Virus record (IMG/VR): IMGVR_UViG_2124908035_000009
Coordinates: 1-20,117 of that record
Strand: one strand, 5' to 3'
DNA length: 20,117 nt
DNA from: a virus
Shown: piece after piece, positions 1,980-13,725 of the stretch
How the letters are laid out: the number at the start of each line of letters is the position of its first letter
Position numbering within the stretch: position 1 is the stretch's first letter
Notes under the pieces: generated by a model
Databases searched by the model: none
What the model was told of the DNA's origin: nothing
The model's input: only the letters and a program-made list of their open reading frames with translations
Made by a program: the position numbers and the translations under genes

Positions 1980-2201
1980 ATGGATCGCTACTCCATAGCT
2001 CTAGGGAAAAGGCCTCCGCCCCGGAAGCCTGTTGAAGAGCCTCTGACCGGGTGGTTTTTAAAATCTACCGGGGAGCTCGAGGTCATAAACCATCCTCAGT
2101 CCTCAGAAGTTTCTAGTTTTTCTAGTTTTATTGGATATACGTTTGAGCCTTACGTTGCAATCGTTAACTCTCGTGCAACTGTTAGAGTAGTGAGAACATA
2201 A
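1980..2201 (+). CDS. 73-residue protein sharing an N-terminal tag with the next gene
   Basis: The protein begins MDRYSIALGKRPPPRKPVEE, nearly the same as the start of the following gene (MDRYSIALNKKPPLRKSVKE). The two genes also match closely in DNA over their first 63 bases. After residue 21 they diverge; the rest here (GWFLKSTGELEVINHP, then a Ser-rich stretch, ending VRVVRT) matches no family I know. AGGA at 1971-1974 is 5 nt before the ATG. Its TAA overlaps the next ATG by one base (TAATG), so the two are surely co-translated. Possible roles are a minor capsid or scaffold-associated protein carrying the same binding or sorting peptide, or a decayed partial copy. Function unknown. Confidence 0.65.
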   Translation: MDRYSIALGKRPPPRKPVEEPLTGWFLKSTGELEVINHPQSSEVSSFSSFIGYTFEPYVAIVNSRATVRVVRT

Positions 2202-2263
2202 TGGATCGCTACAGCATAGCCTTAAATAAAAAGCCTCCGCTCCGGAAGTCTGTTAAAGAGCCT
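2201..2263 (+). repeat. Duplicated gene start, second copy (first copy 1980-2042)
   Basis: Bases 1980-2042 and 2201-2263 are 221 bp apart and encode MDRYSIAL(G/N)K(R/K)PP(P/L)RK(P/S)V(E/K)EP. Most differences are at silent positions or give conservative changes, so the peptide is being kept by selection rather than being a fresh copy. A third, shorter version of the peptide (RNRYAIALGKKFA) is at the 3' end of the second gene (about 3258-3292). Confidence 0.75.
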
Positions 2264-3295
2264 TCCTCAAAGAAGGCGTCCTCCGTTAAAGAAAAAGATG
2301 AACTAATAAATCAGTTCTTGCAGACCTCTGAAGGTCGTCAAAGACTTGCTGCTTCAATGGTAAATCCTATGCGACGACGTTTGGACATGGGTTCCATAGC
2401 TCGTCGTGTTTTTTTAGTACAGTCTCTTCTAGAAGAAACTATTCCAATATATGATACGACTGGCCGAGCTCATTATGTAAGTGAAGATGGTGAGTCTGTT
2501 TCAGTTTCTGAGTCCCCTCGTATTGTAGTTCCTATATTTCCAGTCCAATCTGCTCCTCAGATTTCTTTAACGATGTTAAGACATTCCGCGTCTGATGCTT
2601 TTGAAAGAGCCCAAGATATAGCTTACCAGGAAATAAGAGCAGGAGAAGAAGAAAGAGCTCTTATGGTTCTGGACTCAGCCGTTTCATATGATCCAGTAGA
2701 TTCTGATCCGGCTATAATTAGAAGAACTGCAACGGTTTCCGAGCTCGATATTGAGGTGATGGCTGAAGGATTTGTTATGATTGAGCGTAGTGATTTGAGA
2801 ATGGCAAATGTTCTTATGAATGCTAGAGAATATTCAGATATACGTCGATATGGAAGAGACCAGCTTAATATAAATACCCATAGTTCAGAACTACGGCAAG
2901 GATTAATGGGGTCCTTATGGGGTGCTCAGATAACAGTGTCCAGGGCTATTCCTCCGGGTCAGATATATTTTCTTGCAGAGCCTCAGTTCGTAGGTCAGCT
3001 TCCCATACGGCAAGATATAGAGGTTCTTAGTGCTGACGATCCAGAAATGAGGCAAATCGGATTTAATTTTTCTGAACAAATTGGACTTGTCTGTACTAAT
3101 CCTTTTGGCGTTGCTCGAATTACTGTTTCTGGGTCTCGTCCTGTGGAGCCTAATGCTGCTGAGCGGATTCTTCGTGGTGTATCACTAGGCCGAGATCACA
3201 TGGTTCCTCAGCCCGCTATTTTAAGACCACCGCCCGGGCGGATTCCTAAAGGACGTAATAGATATGCTATAGCTTTAGGAAAAAAGTTCGCTTGA
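2201..3295 (+). CDS. HK97-fold major-capsid-like protein
   Basis: 364 residues. The N-terminal tail (1-45) is basic and Pro/Ser/Lys-rich. Residues about 50-160 include MRRRLDMGSIARRVFLV, IPIYD, an acidic turn, and a long helix ERAQDIAYQEIRAGEEERAL, resembling the N-arm and spine-helix region of phage capsid proteins. Residues about 190-310 follow the typical HK97 C-terminal order: VLMNAREYSDIRRYG, then GLMGSLWGAQITVSRAIPPG, FLAEPQFVGQLPIRQDIEV, and QIGLVCTNPFGVARITV, which fits a P-domain/A-domain. A C-terminal extension ends RNRYAIALGKKFA, echoing the N-terminal tag MDRYSIALNKK. It would form the capsid shell, or be a paralogous minor shell protein. It follows its 73-residue neighbour with a one-base overlap. 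The family call rests on remembered sequence patterns, not a search. No protease domain or scaffold is visible nearby. Confidence 0.68.
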   Translation: MDRYSIALNKKPPLRKSVKEPSSKKASSVKEKDELINQFLQTSEGRQRLAASMVNPMRRRLDMGSIARRVFLVQSLLEETIPIYDTTGRAHYVSEDGESVSVSESPRIVVPIFPVQSAPQISLTMLRHSASDAFERAQDIAYQEIRAGEEERALMVLDSAVSYDPVDSDPAIIRRTATVSELDIEVMAEGFVMIERSDLRMANVLMNAREYSDIRRYGRDQLNINTHSSELRQGLMGSLWGAQITVSRAIPPGQIYFLAEPQFVGQLPIRQDIEVLSADDPEMRQIGFNFSEQIGLVCTNPFGVARITVSGSRPVEPNAAERILRGVSLGRDHMVPQPAILRPPPGRIPKGRNRYAIALGKKFA

Positions 3296-3322: not shown

Positions 3323-3475
3323 ATGGCTACAAATATTCATATAAATCAAGATATCATTATATTATCTAAGCATGAAGCTATAGTCCGTAAATGTTATGAT
3401 TGTGGAACTTATTGGTCTAAGTTAGGAAATGTAATTAAATTAAATACCTCTGCTAAGGATATAAAAAATGAATGA
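3323..3475 (+). CDS. Small 50-residue protein of unknown function
   Basis: ATG at 3323 to TGA at 3473-3475; the end overlaps the start of the next gene by 8 nt (ATGAATGA). The peptide starts MATNIHINQDIIILSKHEAI and contains one CYDCG pair, which alone cannot make a zinc finger unless the protein dimerises. The upstream site is weak. Placement in an otherwise empty gap and the overlap with its neighbour argue for a real gene. No family recognised. Confidence 0.5.
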   Translation: MATNIHINQDIIILSKHEAIVRKCYDCGTYWSKLGNVIKLNTSAKDIKNE

Positions 3476-4562
3476 GCTTGAAATCGCAAAGAAAAGTAAA
3501 ATTTCGAAATTTTTTGTCCCTAAAAATGCCGGTAAAGTTTTTGAGGATAAGTTATCCCCAGATGGAAAATATAGGATTGTGATTGCTCCATATGCGACTA
3601 AAAAAGATTGCTGGAATTTTTCACAGGGACTCGTTTTTAGAGTGGGAAGTGACAAGCCATTATTTGAAGTTCAACGCAATTATTGTAGCTTCCCGTATTC
3701 TTGGATAGATCATCCGAATAGTCATCAATACCTTGTCTGTGGGGAAGATTATCAAGGACAAACAGTCCTTGAATTGGACACCGGGAAAAGATTAGACTTT
3801 GTACCTACTGAAGCAAAAGATGGTGTAGGATTTTGTTGGGCGAATTATCGTTTTGACGTCACTTCAAAAATACTCGTGGTCTGTGGGTGTATATGGGCCT
3901 GTCCTTACGAATTCAGATTTTACGATTTTTCGGACCCTATGAACGGGTGGCCAGAGATTACAATTGAGGATAGTGATATTGACGAAGACCCTATGTGGCC
4001 TGTCTTTGAGTCTGAGGACATCGTTAAAGCTTATAGCACTCGGTCGTATGACGACGAAGATGATGAAGATGACGACAATAAGCCTGCCAAGCCTAAAAAA
4101 ATAAGGGCAATTAAAATTTTAAAGAGAGAAGGTCTAAAATTTAAATTGTTAGACGAAGAAGTTTCGGAGGAAGAAAAGACTAGAAGGAAGGAGCAAGAAG
4201 AGTATCAGCGGTTATACGAAGAAAAAATGAAACTTTTTAAAGAATCAGACCCTTTATATCTATGTCATTGTAATTTAATTAAAGATCCTGCTTTTTCTCC
4301 AGAAGATCACTTTGGTATAGGAATTACTCATAAAGATTGGTGTCCGCATTTTAAAATTGAAGAACAGAGATTCTGCAGAAGAATTGTGAGTTCTAAAAAG
4401 CTCACAATTGACCTAGAATGGGGCATGGTTTCAGGGCCTATAAAGTTGGTTATTTATAAAAAAGGAAAGTCTGCAGGGGATAAGTGGTTTGAGCATTCCG
4501 TTGATGGTATGACTCAGGCTTTTAAGACAATTAAAGATATGCAGTCAACTACCCACGGATAA
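3468..4562 (+). CDS. Uncharacterised Trp/Cys-rich beta protein with an acidic hinge
   Basis: 364 residues. The N-terminal half (about 27-165) has conserved-looking blocks: SPDGKYRIVIAPYATKKDCW, RNYCSFPYSWI, YLVCGEDYQGQTVLELDTGK, GFCWANYRF and CIWACPYEFRFYDFSDPMNG. The SPDGKY block and repeated strand-turn patterns suggest a WD40/beta-propeller-like sheet fold. I associate these blocks with an uncharacterised family in cellular bacteria, so acquisition from a bacterium is likely but not proven. Residues about 193-213 are an acidic-then-basic linker (YDDEDDEDDDNKPAKPKK), then a charged helix (230-258) and a C-terminal region with CHC (266-268) and a few more Cys/His. No enzyme motif is seen. 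AAGGA at 3455-3459 supports the ATG at 3468. It is the only plus-strand gene in the accessory block and is convergent with the VWA operon. The stop codon sits in the apex of a hairpin. Confidence 0.8.
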   Translation: MNELEIAKKSKISKFFVPKNAGKVFEDKLSPDGKYRIVIAPYATKKDCWNFSQGLVFRVGSDKPLFEVQRNYCSFPYSWIDHPNSHQYLVCGEDYQGQTVLELDTGKRLDFVPTEAKDGVGFCWANYRFDVTSKILVVCGCIWACPYEFRFYDFSDPMNGWPEITIEDSDIDEDPMWPVFESEDIVKAYSTRSYDDEDDEDDDNKPAKPKKIRAIKILKREGLKFKLLDEEVSEEEKTRRKEQEEYQRLYEEKMKLFKESDPLYLCHCNLIKDPAFSPEDHFGIGITHKDWCPHFKIEEQRFCRRIVSSKKLTIDLEWGMVSGPIKLVIYKKGKSAGDKWFEHSVDGMTQAFKTIKDMQSTTHG

Positions 4563-4571
4563 ATCCGTGGG
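4552..4571 (+). terminator. Hairpin enclosing the stop codon of the 364-residue gene
   Basis: CCCACGGAT (4552-4560) and ATCCGTGGG (4563-4571) are perfect inverted repeats. The TAA stop (4560-4562) is exactly at the tip, so the real loop is probably 6 nt (ATAAAT) on a 7-bp stem. The downstream sequence CTTGTGATC is not T-rich, so this is not a classical intrinsic terminator. It may protect the 3' end of the mRNA or assist termination together with the second hairpin 60 nt further on. Confidence 0.45.
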
Positions 4572-4633: not shown

Positions 4634-4663
4634 AAGCCCCTCTAGATATGCTCAGAGGGGCTT
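4634..4663 (-). terminator. Strong hairpin between convergent genes, terminator for the minus-strand operon
   Basis: AAGCCCCTCT (4634-4643) and AGAGGGGCTT (4654-4663) pair perfectly over 10 bp around a 10-nt loop. Read on the minus strand the stem is followed by TCTTATG after GGGGCTT, a moderately U-rich tail, so it fits an intrinsic terminator for the VWA operon (stop at 4755). On the plus strand the tail is CCCCGTCC, so termination there would be weaker. The gap 4563-4754 holds no gene, tRNA or other ORF with a start site that I can see. Confidence 0.6.
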
Positions 4664-4754: not shown

Positions 4755-5459
4755 TTAGCACACCATTGATTTGGTTTCTAGCTCGGATAACTTCTCTCGA
4801 TTAATGTTCAGCATTTTGCAGATATCCTCTGGAGTCGTGTCTTTGGAGAGCATGTCTAAGACCTGAGCTCCAAGATTTATTTCATCAAACTCTTCCCGCA
4901 ATGTCTTGATCACAGCATCCAGGGCGTTGTCTGCTTGAATCATTAATCCGCCTGAGAAGGTGGCTAGAGTCTTAAAAGAGGACTCTGTATCACTGTCATG
5001 GGTCAAAGGAATTGAATAGATGGGCACATTTTTCTCTTCCGTTACTTGAATAGCGTCTCCCCAAGTCTTGCCACAGGTGCAGCATTCCGAGCCGTCCATG
5101 CCATGGGGCGGTGCATCTCCTATGAGGAAGGCTATTCTTCTCGAGCCTTCTCTCCAGCTCATAGAATTAACGCCTTCGATGATGCCATCAAGGACAGCCT
5201 CTGGTGTGTCTCCACCTCCTCCAACAGTTATTAAATCGATCTTGTTCTGGATCTCATCAATATTCATGAGATCGAAAGTTACTGTAACGAAAGAGTCTCC
5301 CTGGGAGGGATGGTCTCGATAAAGGGATAACCCTACTTTTGTGTCAACGTTGAATTCTGTTGTGAGCTGATTCAGTATATTTTTCATTCGCCTTTTTGCG
5401 TCGTCGATAAATCCGCCCATGGATCCTGTAATGTCGCAGATAAATAGTAGGTCAATCAT
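4755..5459 (-). CDS. VWA-domain (von Willebrand A) protein with complete MIDAS
   Basis: 234 residues, mostly one VWA domain. It opens directly with MIDLLFICDITGSMGG. The metal-ion-dependent adhesion site is intact: D9-x-T11-x-S13 (the DxTGS variant), T85 in GGGGDTPEAV, and D115 in FLIGDAPPHG. Such domains bind Mg2+ or Mn2+ and grip an acidic residue of a partner protein. A C126-C127-x-C129 cluster follows the third motif. The tail (about 197-234, LDMLSKDTTPEDICKMLNIN) looks like a short helical, HTH-like unit. There is no signal peptide or membrane helix, so it should act in the cytoplasm. The start codon overlaps the upstream gene's stop (ATGA), indicating translational coupling. It is last in a three-gene operon whose other members have Cys clusters. 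It probably forms part of a complex with them; no function is known to me. Confidence 0.9.
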   Translation of the reverse strand: MIDLLFICDITGSMGGFIDDAKRRMKNILNQLTTEFNVDTKVGLSLYRDHPSQGDSFVTVTFDLMNIDEIQNKIDLITVGGGGDTPEAVLDGIIEGVNSMSWREGSRRIAFLIGDAPPHGMDGSECCTCGKTWGDAIQVTEEKNVPIYSIPLTHDSDTESSFKTLATFSGGLMIQADNALDAVIKTLREEFDEINLGAQVLDMLSKDTTPEDICKMLNINREKLSELETKSMVC

Positions 5460-6664
5460 ACACTCACTCCTTCTACTGGTACGCCTTCTAGATAGCCTAG
5501 TTTATTGCCTTCAAGGTTATTGAATCCGTCCGCGGCATATTTTTCAAATTCTTCCTGGAATACGAAGTACAGTCGAATGACTCCGGCCGGTTTCTTTTCC
5601 CAGTCTTCAAGGGGTCTTTTGCTCTTGCTGATGGATTGATTTATTCTGGCGCCGGCTCCGATTCCGACTTCACTCCTGGCCTTATACGAGGCTACTAAGT
5701 CAGAGGAGTATGTTTTTGGATCTTCTATGTGGCTTTCAAAACCAGTGCTATGAATTAAGTTTATGGAGGTTTCTGAAGATGCAGATGCATTACATAAAGA
5801 CATTCCGCATCCTCGGCCATGGGTGCTGGCATAATATCCTCGAGATTCTGATAAGGTAGTAAAACTACCAGGGGTATAGCTGCCTCCTTCTCCTTTTGTA
5901 CCAGGTATTCCAGGTATTCCCGTTGGTCCTCTGTATCCTGTAATGCCAAGCACTCCCGTTGATCCAAGTACGCCGATTCCTACCGAGCTTCCGTAAAAAT
6001 GAATATTACTTTGAGAATCCTTTGGAAATTCGTTTTTAATATGGTTTCCACCTTCCCAGGTCGGGTTATAATTTTTGAGCTTAAAAAATGCAAAGCCAAA
6101 TGCGGGGACTGTATCTTCACGTCCGATGCAGAGCTCAGGAACAGACTTCGCCATGTCTTCTGTGAAATAGAATTGACGGACACCATCTGGAGTCACAAAC
6201 CCGTCCAAGTACAGGCTTGTAGGTTGGGCGATAAAGTTCTGGGCGGGCCATTTAAACCCACACTCTTTGCAGAGCCTTCCTTTGCTGAAGGGCTTATGGT
6301 GAACGGGACATTCGTCCTGATATTCCTCGAGTTCATAGCCATTAGTACGCTGACCGGTTAAAGGATTCATACCTTTTACCGAGGTCAGGACAGCTGTATT
6401 GGCCGGATTATTCATCGAATAGTTGAACCACAGGGACCAGCCCTCATCGACGGGGCATATGTAGCTTCCCTCGCCACCCACCCAGTTATCCGGCCGGGAT
6501 TTTAAATAGTCTACGGGAAGGACCGGGATAGGAATTCCTGGAGGGAGTCGACCATTGTCATTCGATTTCTTCTCCGCCCGCATAATTGAAGCAAAGAAGC
6601 CGTTTATATTCATGATCCTTTGCATAAAAGGCGTTATGGAAAAGCCTAAGATATCGTGATACAT
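5456..6664 (-). CDS. Zinc-ribbon protein with a collagen-like insert, partner of the VWA protein
   Basis: 402 residues. Residues about 60-110 contain CPVDEGWSLWF and TSVKGMNPLTGQ. A zinc ribbon follows at 119-135 (CPVHHKPF...GRLCKECG; ligands C119, H122 or H123, C132, C135), then KWPAQNFIAQP and an aromatic-rich region through TVPAFGFAFFKLKN (about 186-198). Residues 231-260 are ten Gly-X-Y triplets (GPTGIPGIPGTKG and similar), a collagen-like insert. After it come Cys286/Cys291 and a C-terminal domain (about 333-385) with GIGAGARINQSISK and GVIRLYFVFQEEFEKY. I associate the non-collagen parts with bacterial proteins encoded beside VWA proteins; the function is unknown. On the minus strand AAAGGA lies 7-8 nt before the ATG at 6664. 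The stop overlaps the VWA gene's ATG. A structural fibre role is less likely, since the collagen part is short and internal. Confidence 0.82.
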   Translation of the reverse strand: MYHDILGFSITPFMQRIMNINGFFASIMRAEKKSNDNGRLPPGIPIPVLPVDYLKSRPDNWVGGEGSYICPVDEGWSLWFNYSMNNPANTAVLTSVKGMNPLTGQRTNGYELEEYQDECPVHHKPFSKGRLCKECGFKWPAQNFIAQPTSLYLDGFVTPDGVRQFYFTEDMAKSVPELCIGREDTVPAFGFAFFKLKNYNPTWEGGNHIKNEFPKDSQSNIHFYGSSVGIGVLGSTGVLGITGYRGPTGIPGIPGTKGEGGSYTPGSFTTLSESRGYYASTHGRGCGMSLCNASASSETSINLIHSTGFESHIEDPKTYSSDLVASYKARSEVGIGAGARINQSISKSKRPLEDWEKKPAGVIRLYFVFQEEFEKYAADGFNNLEGNKLGYLEGVPVEGVSV

Positions 6665-6686
6665 GTTATATATCCTTTCTGAAGAT

Positions 6687-6717
6687 AGGGCCCTCTTAAT
6701 AAAAGAGAGCCCTTTTT
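6687..6717 (+). terminator. Hairpin plus T-run, oriented as a plus-strand terminator
   Basis: AGGGCCCTCTT (6687-6697) and AAGAGAGCCCT (6703-6713) form an 11-bp stem with one C-A mismatch and a 5-nt loop. The plus strand then runs TTTTT, the layout of an intrinsic terminator. It lies in the 55-bp gap between the first and second genes of the minus-strand operon. On the minus strand the tail is ATCTTC, so it would terminate poorly there and may act as an intercistronic stabiliser or attenuator. On the plus strand it would stop antisense readthrough coming from 3468-4562. Confidence 0.5.
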
Positions 6718-6719
6718 AA

Positions 6720-7781
6720 TTACTTTGTGTGGAAAGGGTCGGCCGGCTTTGAGTTCGGAAGACTCCGACTTATTTTTAACCGTGGAAGATCGTTTACCAG
6801 ATCTAGCCGGTCGTATTCTCTGGCTACTTTGGGCCATGTTTTTCGGAGATCATCGAGGCCTTTACCTGCACTGATCAGAATATCTTTACGGTCTGATTTC
6901 TCATAGTTGGCCGATTTAGTAATGAGATGGATGAAAGCTTTAACATTATCCGACATTCCGGAAAAATCGGCGTTGTCGGCTTCACAATAGCCTTTATAGA
7001 GTGCCTCTTTGCAAAAAGGGCACATTTCGATGACCTGGTCCTCGGGGTTCAATTCGCTAATGCGGTACACGTTGACAAACACGTCACCTTGGCGTACAAT
7101 CGATGGGTTAACCATGCGACGAGATCTTTTAAGCAGGTCTAGGCTCATATCTATGTCTATGGCTTTTTTACCGATACTTTCACTTGTGTCGAAGATCTTG
7201 GGACCTGGTTTTAATACAACAAATGCACCGTAGTTTGCCCTGTGATGGAGCTCTTGCTCGATTCCGTAGTCCCTATCTCGGTTGTACATTTCAAGTAGTT
7301 CTTTATCTTTCATCTGTTTGGGATCACGTAGACTTCTGGCAAGATCAATAAATTGATTGGCTACAATGGAGCCGTCAAGTAATTGTGCATTTGAGGTTGT
7401 TGTGGTCGGAGAAACCTGCCAGGAACCACTATTATTTGTTATTGTTGGTTCGACAATTTTTCCTGACACTTGCTCAGATTTTTTGAATGGGTCTCGGCCT
7501 TTTAAAATTGCTGAGGCTGCTTTCCTTGCAAGTAATGGGAATGAGCTATCAGGTCCAGATTTGTAGTAAACAGCCCCACTAGGAGCTTTGACAACAGGAG
7601 TTAAAGAGGAGAAAATAATATCTTCTGTTGTTGTTTCGGCATCTAAGAGTTGAAGCCCTTCTTGGTCTGGTTCAATACCTAAAGTATTTTTTAGGCATTC
7701 TATTAAGTCGGCTTCTGTAATTTTTAGGGTTTTTGAAGCTTGTTGAATGCGGAAATCGATAGAGGAAAAAGACATGTCCAT
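6720..7781 (-). CDS. Uncharacterised protein with a Cys cluster, first gene of the VWA operon
   Basis: 353 residues from the ATG at 7781. This start is chosen because AAAGGAG lies 6 nt upstream on the minus strand; the frame stays open to 7907 but the upstream ATG has no such site. Residues 1-60 are helical (IDFRIQQASKTLKITEADLIECLKN style), followed by a segment ending ARKAASAILKGRDPF (about 85-99). A low-complexity Ser/Thr linker (about 100-135) leads to a mixed alpha/beta core, MKDKELLEMY to GAFVVLKPGPK, DIDMSLDLLKRSRR and FVNVYRISEL. A Cys cluster follows, C254-P-F-C257 ... Y-C266: it looks like a zinc ribbon that has lost its fourth ligand. The C-terminal region (DDLRKTWPKVAREYDRLDLV, ending ADPFHTK) is helical. 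I associate this layout with uncharacterised bacterial proteins. It probably works with the two downstream genes; no catalytic motif is visible. Confidence 0.8.
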   Translation of the reverse strand: MDMSFSSIDFRIQQASKTLKITEADLIECLKNTLGIEPDQEGLQLLDAETTTEDIIFSSLTPVVKAPSGAVYYKSGPDSSFPLLARKAASAILKGRDPFKKSEQVSGKIVEPTITNNSGSWQVSPTTTTSNAQLLDGSIVANQFIDLARSLRDPKQMKDKELLEMYNRDRDYGIEQELHHRANYGAFVVLKPGPKIFDTSESIGKKAIDIDMSLDLLKRSRRMVNPSIVRQGDVFVNVYRISELNPEDQVIEMCPFCKEALYKGYCEADNADFSGMSDNVKAFIHLITKSANYEKSDRKDILISAGKGLDDLRKTWPKVAREYDRLDLVNDLPRLKISRSLPNSKPADPFHTK

Positions 7782-7958
7782 AATGGACTCCTTTGTTTTT
7801 GGCGACGTATTACGGTCAGCCGGTTTGGTCCAATTTGAGCAGTTGAACCTTACTGCCAGAACCAGGAAAGGCGGTTCTACCCTTGTGTGCTTTTTAAAAG
7901 CCTGCACACCACGGCCTATACATATATAAATGCTATTAATAGATAATTACAGGACTTT
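7782..7958. promoter_or_regulatory. Divergent promoter region with palindromes
   Basis: 177 bp separate the minus-strand operon from the plus-strand gene at 7959, so at least the minus-strand promoter must lie here. On the plus strand TATAAA (7925-7930) is followed at once by a perfect 10-bp palindrome CTATTAATAG (7933-7942), about 17 nt before the start codon. GTGTGC (7885-7890) and GCACAC (7904-7909) form an inverted repeat around an A/T-rich core, an operator-like or leader hairpin. On the minus strand TTGGAC and TAATAC are spaced 15 nt apart (near 7824-7850), a poor sigma-70 match. None of these is certain individually. Confidence 0.4.
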
Positions 7959-11796: not shown

Positions 11797-13725
11797 ATGA
11801 GTCTTTCCGATCTATGTTCAGAATATATAAACTCCGCAAAATTAAAAGATGAGTCTGAGAGAAATATAATCGAGTTTGCTGAGGCTCCATGGGGACTCGG
11901 ACTCGGTATTGGTGGAACACCTCCTCTTTTTCCCGTTCAAAAATTCATTTTCAAATGCTATTATAATATTCTGCTTGACGGTAATGAGAAAAATATAATC
12001 ATTAAAGACCGGTTTAATGAACAGGAACGGTTTCGTTTTACTGAAATTGAATATTTGAAATTTTTATGGAATGAAGGCCGGATAAATGTAAAGGAAATTA
12101 CTGGGGACCCGAAAAAGAGTCGGTCTAATCTCCACCTTGTTATCGGGCGCCGCGGTTTAAAGACGAGTAGTATCGCCATTCTAGTGGCCTTTGAAGCTTA
12201 TAAACTCCTTAAGAAAGTATGCCCCCAGGAATTTTACCGGATCATGCCGGACGACGAAATACGTATCTCCTGCATAGCCACAAACCAAGAACAAGCCGCA
12301 GAACTTTTCCGTAGAATTGCCGGGCATCTGGAGTGTTCGGATTATTTTAAAAAGTTTAGGGATAGACCCACCCTTAGTTATATGCGGTTAAGCACTCAAA
12401 GGGACATCGATAAGTATGGTGAGGGTGGTCGACCTTCTTTAAGAATTGTCGCGGCACCTTGTAGTGGACGTGGGCTCCGTGGACATAACAATATTATTGC
12501 AGTTATGGATGAAATGGCCTATTTCTTCGAAACAGACAGCTCCGTGGACAAGTCTGACAAGGAAATATATGACGCGGTAACACCCTCCGTTATTAAATTC
12601 AACCGTCCAGATGGGGAATCTGATGGGCGGATTATTTGTATTTCTTCTCCTGCGGCTCGTACGGGTAAGTTTTATGAAATTTATCAAAGATCCATGGAGA
12701 AGGAATGTGAAAATTTGTTGATGATTCAGGCTCCGACTTGGGAAGTGGATTATACAATACCGCCGAAGATGTTGCGGTCGAAATATGTAGAGAATCCTAT
12801 AACTTATATGAGCGAGTATGGAGCTCAGTTCAGTGACCGGGTTTCGGCGTGGATTGATAATGAACAGATTCTCAGGGTTAATATTGTTCCTGGTCTTAAA
12901 GTTAAGAAGATGAGTTATGAAAGAGTTCCACATTTCATGGGGATTGATCTTGGGCTTAAAAGCGATGGTACGGCAATAGCTATATGTCACGTTGTAAGAC
13001 AAACGGTAGAAGGTGGGACTAAGGATTTTATTGAATTGGATTTTATAGATGTACGATACGCCTTTGATGAGAAAAAGGACTGTGCTGAGGAAAATCGGTA
13101 TTTCAGGCCGGAAGAGATGGCGGATTGGATCGCAGAGTGTGCAAATAAATTTTTTATTTCCAAAGGAGTGCTGGACCAGCACTACGGTATGGCTATACTT
13201 CCTGCTTTGCACGATAGGGGGCTAAAGCAGTTTGAGGCGGTTCATTGTACCAGGGAATATAATTCAAGTGTTTACCAGAACTTTATGACGAAGATGCTGG
13301 ATGCTTCCTTAAGAATTCCAGAGGATGAGCCGCATATAGTTAATGAAAAAATGACCAAGGATCTGCCCCTGGTTACGGAAATGCTACGGTTACAGGCAGA
13401 TCTCTATTCAAAATACCTTATTTCTGTTCGGGCCCCTGACTTGAAGGGTCATCATGATGACCTCTCCGATGCCTTTGCTCGGGCTGTATATATAGCTACG
13501 GAGTTCATGGCTAAGGGTGGGGTAATCGGTAATAAAATTGTGGAATCGACCTCGGAACAGGGAAAATCCTACCGACAGTATTATCTTAAGCAGAAAAGGT
13601 CCGCTCTCTACACAATGAGACCGACCGCAGCTTTTCAGGCTGAAGTAGCCAGAAAAGGCATGAACTCGATGCTTGATAGAAATGCTTATTCCAGATTAGG
13701 AAGTCCTCTCGGCCGACTCCGGTGA
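11797..13725 (+). CDS. terL: Terminase large subunit (DNA-packaging ATPase and nuclease)
   Basis: 642 residues. The motor cuts concatemeric phage DNA and pumps it into the prohead at the portal. ATPase: Walker A variant GRRGLKTS (117-124) after LHLVI; a conserved RIAGHLE-type region; Walker B IIAVMDE (233-239) with D238 and catalytic E239; motif III CISSPAARTGKF (281-292) with the SSP coupling motif. RNase-H-like nuclease: D384 in MGIDLGLKSDGTA, D460 in GVLDQHYG, and D554/D555 in HHDDLSDAFARA, giving the expected acidic triad. Length is in the usual range for large terminases. The start follows the previous stop by one base and has only a weak ribosome binding site, so coupling is likely. No intein or intron interrupts it. 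This is the firmest identification in the window. Confidence 0.96.
   Translation: MSLSDLCSEYINSAKLKDESERNIIEFAEAPWGLGLGIGGTPPLFPVQKFIFKCYYNILLDGNEKNIIIKDRFNEQERFRFTEIEYLKFLWNEGRINVKEITGDPKKSRSNLHLVIGRRGLKTSSIAILVAFEAYKLLKKVCPQEFYRIMPDDEIRISCIATNQEQAAELFRRIAGHLECSDYFKKFRDRPTLSYMRLSTQRDIDKYGEGGRPSLRIVAAPCSGRGLRGHNNIIAVMDEMAYFFETDSSVDKSDKEIYDAVTPSVIKFNRPDGESDGRIICISSPAARTGKFYEIYQRSMEKECENLLMIQAPTWEVDYTIPPKMLRSKYVENPITYMSEYGAQFSDRVSAWIDNEQILRVNIVPGLKVKKMSYERVPHFMGIDLGLKSDGTAIAICHVVRQTVEGGTKDFIELDFIDVRYAFDEKKDCAEENRYFRPEEMADWIAECANKFFISKGVLDQHYGMAILPALHDRGLKQFEAVHCTREYNSSVYQNFMTKMLDASLRIPEDEPHIVNEKMTKDLPLVTEMLRLQADLYSKYLISVRAPDLKGHHDDLSDAFARAVYIATEFMAKGGVIGNKIVESTSEQGKSYRQYYLKQKRSALYTMRPTAAFQAEVARKGMNSMLDRNAYSRLGSPLGRLR

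Follow-up and report, generated by a model that had tools for sequence, protein, structure and literature searches.

Three minus-strand genes in a mainly plus-strand phage region raise the question of whether they form a functional unit and what such a unit would do. In stress, assembly and conflict systems, VWA proteins accompanied by partner genes are a familiar theme. The initial annotation had described the genes as a transferred operon encoding a VWA protein, a zinc-ribbon protein and a protein with a Cys cluster. The window, i.e. the whole stretch of DNA analysed, is an IMG/VR virus record, 20,117 bases in length.

The operon and its phage setting

The open reading frames of the operon were found where they had been annotated. 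Elsewhere in the window the main genes lay mainly on the plus strand; among them were a terminase gene (11797-13725), a sigma-70-like gene, very long tail-fibre genes of collagen-like type and an HNH homing endonuclease gene. The best match of the terminase was in LR745208, an uncultured 485-kb phage (35% identity), and the second nearest in the 309-kb Tunturiibacter phage Tunturi_5, which identifies the record as a fragment from a jumbo-phage relative.

The first gene of the operon, here called third (6720..7781, minus strand, 353 aa), is separated by a 55-bp gap from the second, middle (5456..6664, minus strand, 402 aa). The VWA gene (4755..5459, minus strand, 234 aa) starts within the stop codon of middle, and the reported ATGA stop/start overlap was located at 5456..5459 on the minus strand. 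The intergenic region between the operon and a divergent plus-strand gene (7782..7958) is the presumed promoter region, in which no strong sigma-70 consensus was found. Between the convergent genes at the other end, a perfect 10-bp inverted repeat AAGCCCCTCT...AGAGGGGCTT (4634..4663), without match in Rfam, is a candidate operon terminator. The pN/pS values of 0.17-0.43 across the three genes indicated purifying selection on all of them; because of this and of the recurrence of the genes in other phages, the three reading frames are not due to chance.

Some further features were observed in the window and in LR745208. The HNH gene (819-1967) adjoins the sigma gene, has a much lower GC content (0.33) and is missing from the same position in L004/L005, and was therefore considered a recent insertion. 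The two successive genes at 1980-3295 share the N-terminal start motif MDRYSIALxKxPPxRK, and the second of them also ends in RNRYAIALGKK, thus repeating a short tag. A perfect hairpin CCCACGGAtaaaTCCGTGGG (4552-4571), also without match in Rfam, spans the stop of the gene at 3468-4562 and presumably recalls the ends of IS200/IS605 elements. In LR745208, a TnpB-like gene (named by eye; L099:10599-11900) lies immediately ahead of the terminase.

A constant pair of genes with an exchangeable VWA gene

IMG/VR was scanned with single proteins and profiles, and the pair of third and middle was found in 25 virus records including the window, or 22 distinct records after near-identical pairs were collapsed. 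The carrier records, the window itself excepted, spanned 47 to 548 kb. The terminase family phrog_2 was detected in 10 of the 20 carrier records tested, the remainder being viral by IMG/VR label. One Parcubacteria MAG contig, from a collection of one genome per species (84,980 species), carried the third-middle pair. As single queries middle and third had no match in INPHARED phages or plasmids, and third had none in the viral contigs, for which profiles were needed.

In each of the 26 records (25 virus records and the MAG), third and middle were collinear neighbours with their order unchanged, and homologues of third were found solely adjoining middle. Also the pairwise distances of the two proteins agreed (Mantel r 0.84, 0 of 20,000 permutations), which partly reflects shared phage ancestry. 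The window-type VWA gene was present in eight distinct records, its start overlapping middle in 8/8, and in the profile scan all VWA relatives with more than 50% identity were inside the set, while the next best (31% or less) were elsewhere. A second VWA family, of DRSGSM type, adjoined the pair in seven other distinct records, either downstream (L016, L021, L022, L025, L033) or upstream (L018, L019). L002 carried both types, and in L020 the second-type VWA was encoded approximately 270 kb from the pair. No adjacent VWA gene was seen in 8 of the 23 distinct records (7 virus records and the MAG), a count to be read as weak evidence of absence because many carrier records are fragments; based on these eight, the VWA protein may be an optional helper. 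A tight link between VWA and middle in the Rctr197k record was dropped, as one gene is found at each end of this linear, partial record, which has no terminal repeat. The constant core of the set is the inseparable pair of third and middle, and VWA is its exchangeable part. The profile and neighbourhood survey thus bore out the proposed recurrence in that the set recurs in unrelated phages, but not the constancy of all three genes, since VWA varies.

The flanking genes were common within phage groups only and differed between groups. LR745208 retains the order sigma, p8584-like, p9001-like, p11253-like and TerL; in place of the cassette, three different genes stand between sigma and p8584, and two of these looked tail-type by eye. 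The cassette is accessory, as this related huge phage lacks it at the syntenic position. In the MAG, the pair sits between rlmN-like and mutM-like genes on contig JABHSK010000001, and no virion genes were seen within 8 kb (gene names by eye). This copy looks chromosomal, although the contig could be misbinned.

Neighbour gene names outside the Pfam-scanned genes were assigned by eye. A NADAR-domain gene (PF08719) overlaps the VWA stop in L007 (10002-10463) as a fourth operon gene, and in L002 (257-736) another is found upstream, some 5 kb from the set. A ClpP-like protease gene is located directly 3' of the second-type VWA in L022 (9972-10544) and, by eye, in L033 (9939-10511), and a GIY-YIG-like homing endonuclease (by eye; L025:9311-10036) forms an insertion that separates middle from the second-type VWA. 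Macro-domain and TROVE neighbours had also been guessed by eye and were not confirmed by Pfam.

Conserved features of the three proteins

The VWA protein matched the Pfam families PF25106 VWA_4 (9.6e-12; 45.2 bits) and PF00092 (8.9e-07; 29.7 bits), both above the curated cut-off. The predicted metal-site motifs DxTxS, GGGGDxPE and GDAPxHG occur in this order, and the MIDAS residues D9, T11, S13, E87 and D115 were invariant among seven aligned homologues. H119, C127 and C129 were conserved as well, placing an invariant His and two Cys past the third motif. With a profile match above cut-off and the metal-site residues intact, the protein is a genuine member of the VWA domain family, and the full MIDAS read from the window was confirmed. 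The usual Thr of the second motif is not conserved, GGGGDxPEA with the invariant E87 being present instead. This is the arrangement of the integrin beta VWA (I-like) domain, in which Glu likewise replaces the MIDAS Thr and a DxPE motif is found. The integrin beta matches were weak (best E 0.0022) and, unlike integrin beta, the window protein is a stand-alone, presumably cytoplasmic phage protein without other integrin domains.

Middle consists of a beta-rich N domain with a predicted inserted zinc ribbon (CPVH-x9-CKEC), a linker, and a C-terminal domain with the motif GIGAGAxIxQ. The ribbon CPVH...CKEC was invariant in 17 homologues (consensus CPxH-x9-CxxCxFKWP), and middle is indeed the zinc-ribbon protein of the first description. 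The linker is Ser/Gly-rich and variable: it contains 17% Ser against 6% elsewhere in the homologue alignment, and its column identity is 0.27 against 0.63 and 0.54 for the parts on either side. In the window copy it includes a short collagen-like stretch (res. 230-262); such repeats were found in the window, L004 and few others, and the linker of the homologues is often Ser-rich without them. The PHROG tail-fibre matches of middle arise because the window linker happens to be collagen-like. The idea of middle as a collagen-like tail fibre was rejected, as this region is a variable linker and not a conserved fibre.

Neither sequence search nor Foldseek gave a match of middle to the PDB; p53-like Foldseek matches (prob 0.03 or less) were rejected as noise. 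The sole fold match was the Edafosvirus giant-virus protein A0A3G4ZV90 (E 1.7e-3, prob 0.99). The AF2 models of middle and third were built on 17 sequences and had modest confidence.

Bacterial relatives of middle were found in a family here called A7, which was used as query and tested by profile comparison. The whole N-terminal domain was matched (hhalign prob 98.7, E 3.7e-16), reciprocal hmmsearch gave E 1e-9 to 1e-25, and the C part was matched by motif. The A7 proteins have the same two-domain plan (LPP...W...NxITG...QNY...WLDG...RQF, linker, GAGGxIxQ...W), and middle has both conserved halves, pointing to membership of the family. Unlike the phage set, A7 genes lack a zinc ribbon, a third gene and an adjoining VWA. 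Relative to A7, the ribbon of middle is an exact insertion between NxITG and QNYI, and middle in this respect departs from the ribbon-less family; since 17/17 aligned members carry CPxH...CxxC there, the phage proteins form a derived A7 subfamily. No Pfam model was found for A7. The members found were on six large plasmids (Kovacikia, Euzebya, Miltoncostaea, Bradyrhizobium, Bosea, Streptomyces) and in two phage records (Rctr197k, LR756511); the Edafosvirus protein was grouped with them by fold only. XRE-type regulators were close to the A7 gene on three plasmids, and on two it was followed by an M12 peptidase gene. The M12 metallopeptidase genes after the A7 relatives were at L051:7353-9488 and L053:7426-8491, and the Bradyrhizobium relative is followed by an M12 metallopeptidase and also by caspase and trypsin-type genes.

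Third is mostly helical, with a zinc-ribbon-like motif between helical N- and C-terminal parts (AF2 mean pLDDT 74); the N-terminal part of one homologue resembles IF2_N. The reported Cys cluster is present as CPFC...YCEADN but keeps 3/4 ligands, where relatives have CPxH/C...CEEC. With three Cys/His ligands, the window copy would not make a four-ligand zinc ribbon. Window-type relatives have four ribbon ligands and a remote clade has none, and zinc may be dispensable in third because the ribbon is damaged in the window copy and lost in that clade. The ribbons of third and middle were homologous (hhalign 94.7%). No match was found for third in the PDB by sequence or by Foldseek, SipD/eIF2 Foldseek matches being rejected as noise.

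Middle and third belonged to no named family in Pfam, NCBIfam, PHROGs, PADLOC or PDB. The window proteins had no match in PADLOC, the lone match of a homologue being Cas11 (E 0.011). No PHROGs structural family matched the conserved parts, and the collagen-like linker matches (best 0.00094) were the only ones. By these profiles, the set appears to be neither a catalogued defence system nor made of virion proteins; the earlier view that it is not a virion component is supported, as no virion family matched apart from the low-complexity collagen-like matches.

A proposed client-binding complex and known VWA systems

Many unrelated, very large phages carry the three genes jointly as an optional cassette, and the genes therefore very probably encode one undescribed machine, as far as can be judged from sequence. 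No description of the set was found in literature searches, in line with its initial designation as undescribed. The accessory cassette may well encode one cytoplasmic complex that grips a client and acts during infection, not in the particle, a reading held tentatively. Third and middle, whose ribbons are related, would form a zinc-ribbon heteromeric scaffold on which VWA docks, and the flexible Ser/Gly linker would connect the two conserved halves of middle. The Mg2+-loaded, integrin-beta-like MIDAS would grip a host or phage client by one of its acidic residues or by an extended peptide, and vWA domains in general bind such targets by their MIDAS (PMC7159879). The client would be sequestered or adapted rather than unfolded because the set has no ATPase, and the complex would serve inside the infected cell as an aid in host takeover, counter-defence or stress. 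The location of the set near tail or terminase genes in several phage groups speaks against this explanation. So do the records in which no VWA adjoins the pair, the damaged or lost ribbon of third and the possible misbinning of the MAG contig. A more specific version is possible though unlikely: jumbo phages would disarm or redirect specific host proteins with an ATPase-free, zinc-scaffolded client-binding complex, derived from a widespread unnamed bacterial family and carrying an interchangeable integrin-beta-like VWA reader.

The tail and terminase neighbours could instead indicate a virion-assembly chaperone, in which VWA and the zinc-ribbon partners assist jumbo phages in folding or assembling their baseplates or large tail fibres. 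In the window, TerL and collagen-like tail-fibre genes lie close to the set, as do tail-type genes in L009, L012 and L090. There is also a precedent, as MoxR-vWA is needed for the tails of Acidianus two-tailed virus and has been proposed to serve the same role in group 2.2 jumbo phages (PMC7824862). However, MoxR (PF07726) was above cut-off in 0/20 carrier records, many of them fragments, against 10/14 control genomes. The set is furthermore transcribed opposite to the structural genes in the window and missing from a related phage whose terminase neighbourhood is the same, and a ribbon-less relative of middle occurs in bacteria, outside phages. An assembly role is therefore a minor possibility. 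It is quite improbable that the set is part of the virion itself, with middle as a minor fibre or decoration protein and VWA as a cell-surface adhesion domain. The collagen-like repeats, the resemblance of VWA to integrin beta and the weak PHROG tail-fibre matches fit such a role, but the matches are confined to low-complexity sequence, mostly res. 225-280, which is variable linker in homologues. Moreover, zinc ribbons suit the reducing cytoplasm, both conserved halves of middle are common to bacterial proteins, and the chromosomal-looking copy has no virion genes nearby.

A further reading is a phage-borne defence cassette that would keep out competing phages or plasmids (superinfection exclusion) instead of aiding the phage's own infection. 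The set is accessory and patchy with swapped modules, NADAR, ClpP or patatin genes are nearby in some phages, and genes for M12 peptidase, caspase and trypsin adjoin the bacterial relatives. Nevertheless, PADLOC gave no match, the set has no recognisable toxic effector domain, and its neighbours are lineage-specific rather than constant, which makes defence rather unlikely. The client-gripping complex would be a motor-less conserved set whose VWA is exchangeable and which occurs in phages that are among the largest known. Built on a bacterial family without name or structure, the set defines two protein families that merit naming and structure determination, and offers a concrete, testable way into the many uncharacterised genes of jumbo phages.

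Well-studied bacterial chaperone-type VWA systems use an AAA+ motor. A connection with Ter-type systems or MoxR chaperones was not supported, since neither TerD (PF02342) nor MoxR above cut-off was found in the 20 carrier records searched whole, many of them being fragments. Ter systems with TerY-TerF vWA proteins share with the set a VWA domain and zinc-ribbon partners. The three window proteins had no Ter-family match in Pfam or NCBIfam, and with neither a TerD-family protein nor other Ter genes, the VWA in PF25106 and the partners in unnamed families, the set would not be a Ter stress or defence system. The MoxR-vWA ternary systems are likewise modular and patchy, and combine vWA with conserved partner genes (PMC7159879). 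The set differs from them in its unrelated partners and lack of a linked MoxR AAA+ ATPase, and is thus unlikely to be such a system. The chaperones NorQ/NorD, RavA/ViaA and CbbQ/CbbO also need an AAA+ motor, none of which is linked to the set; the likeness to them lies in the VWA MIDAS, by which NorD grips its target through binding of an acidic patch on the client (PMC9976466).
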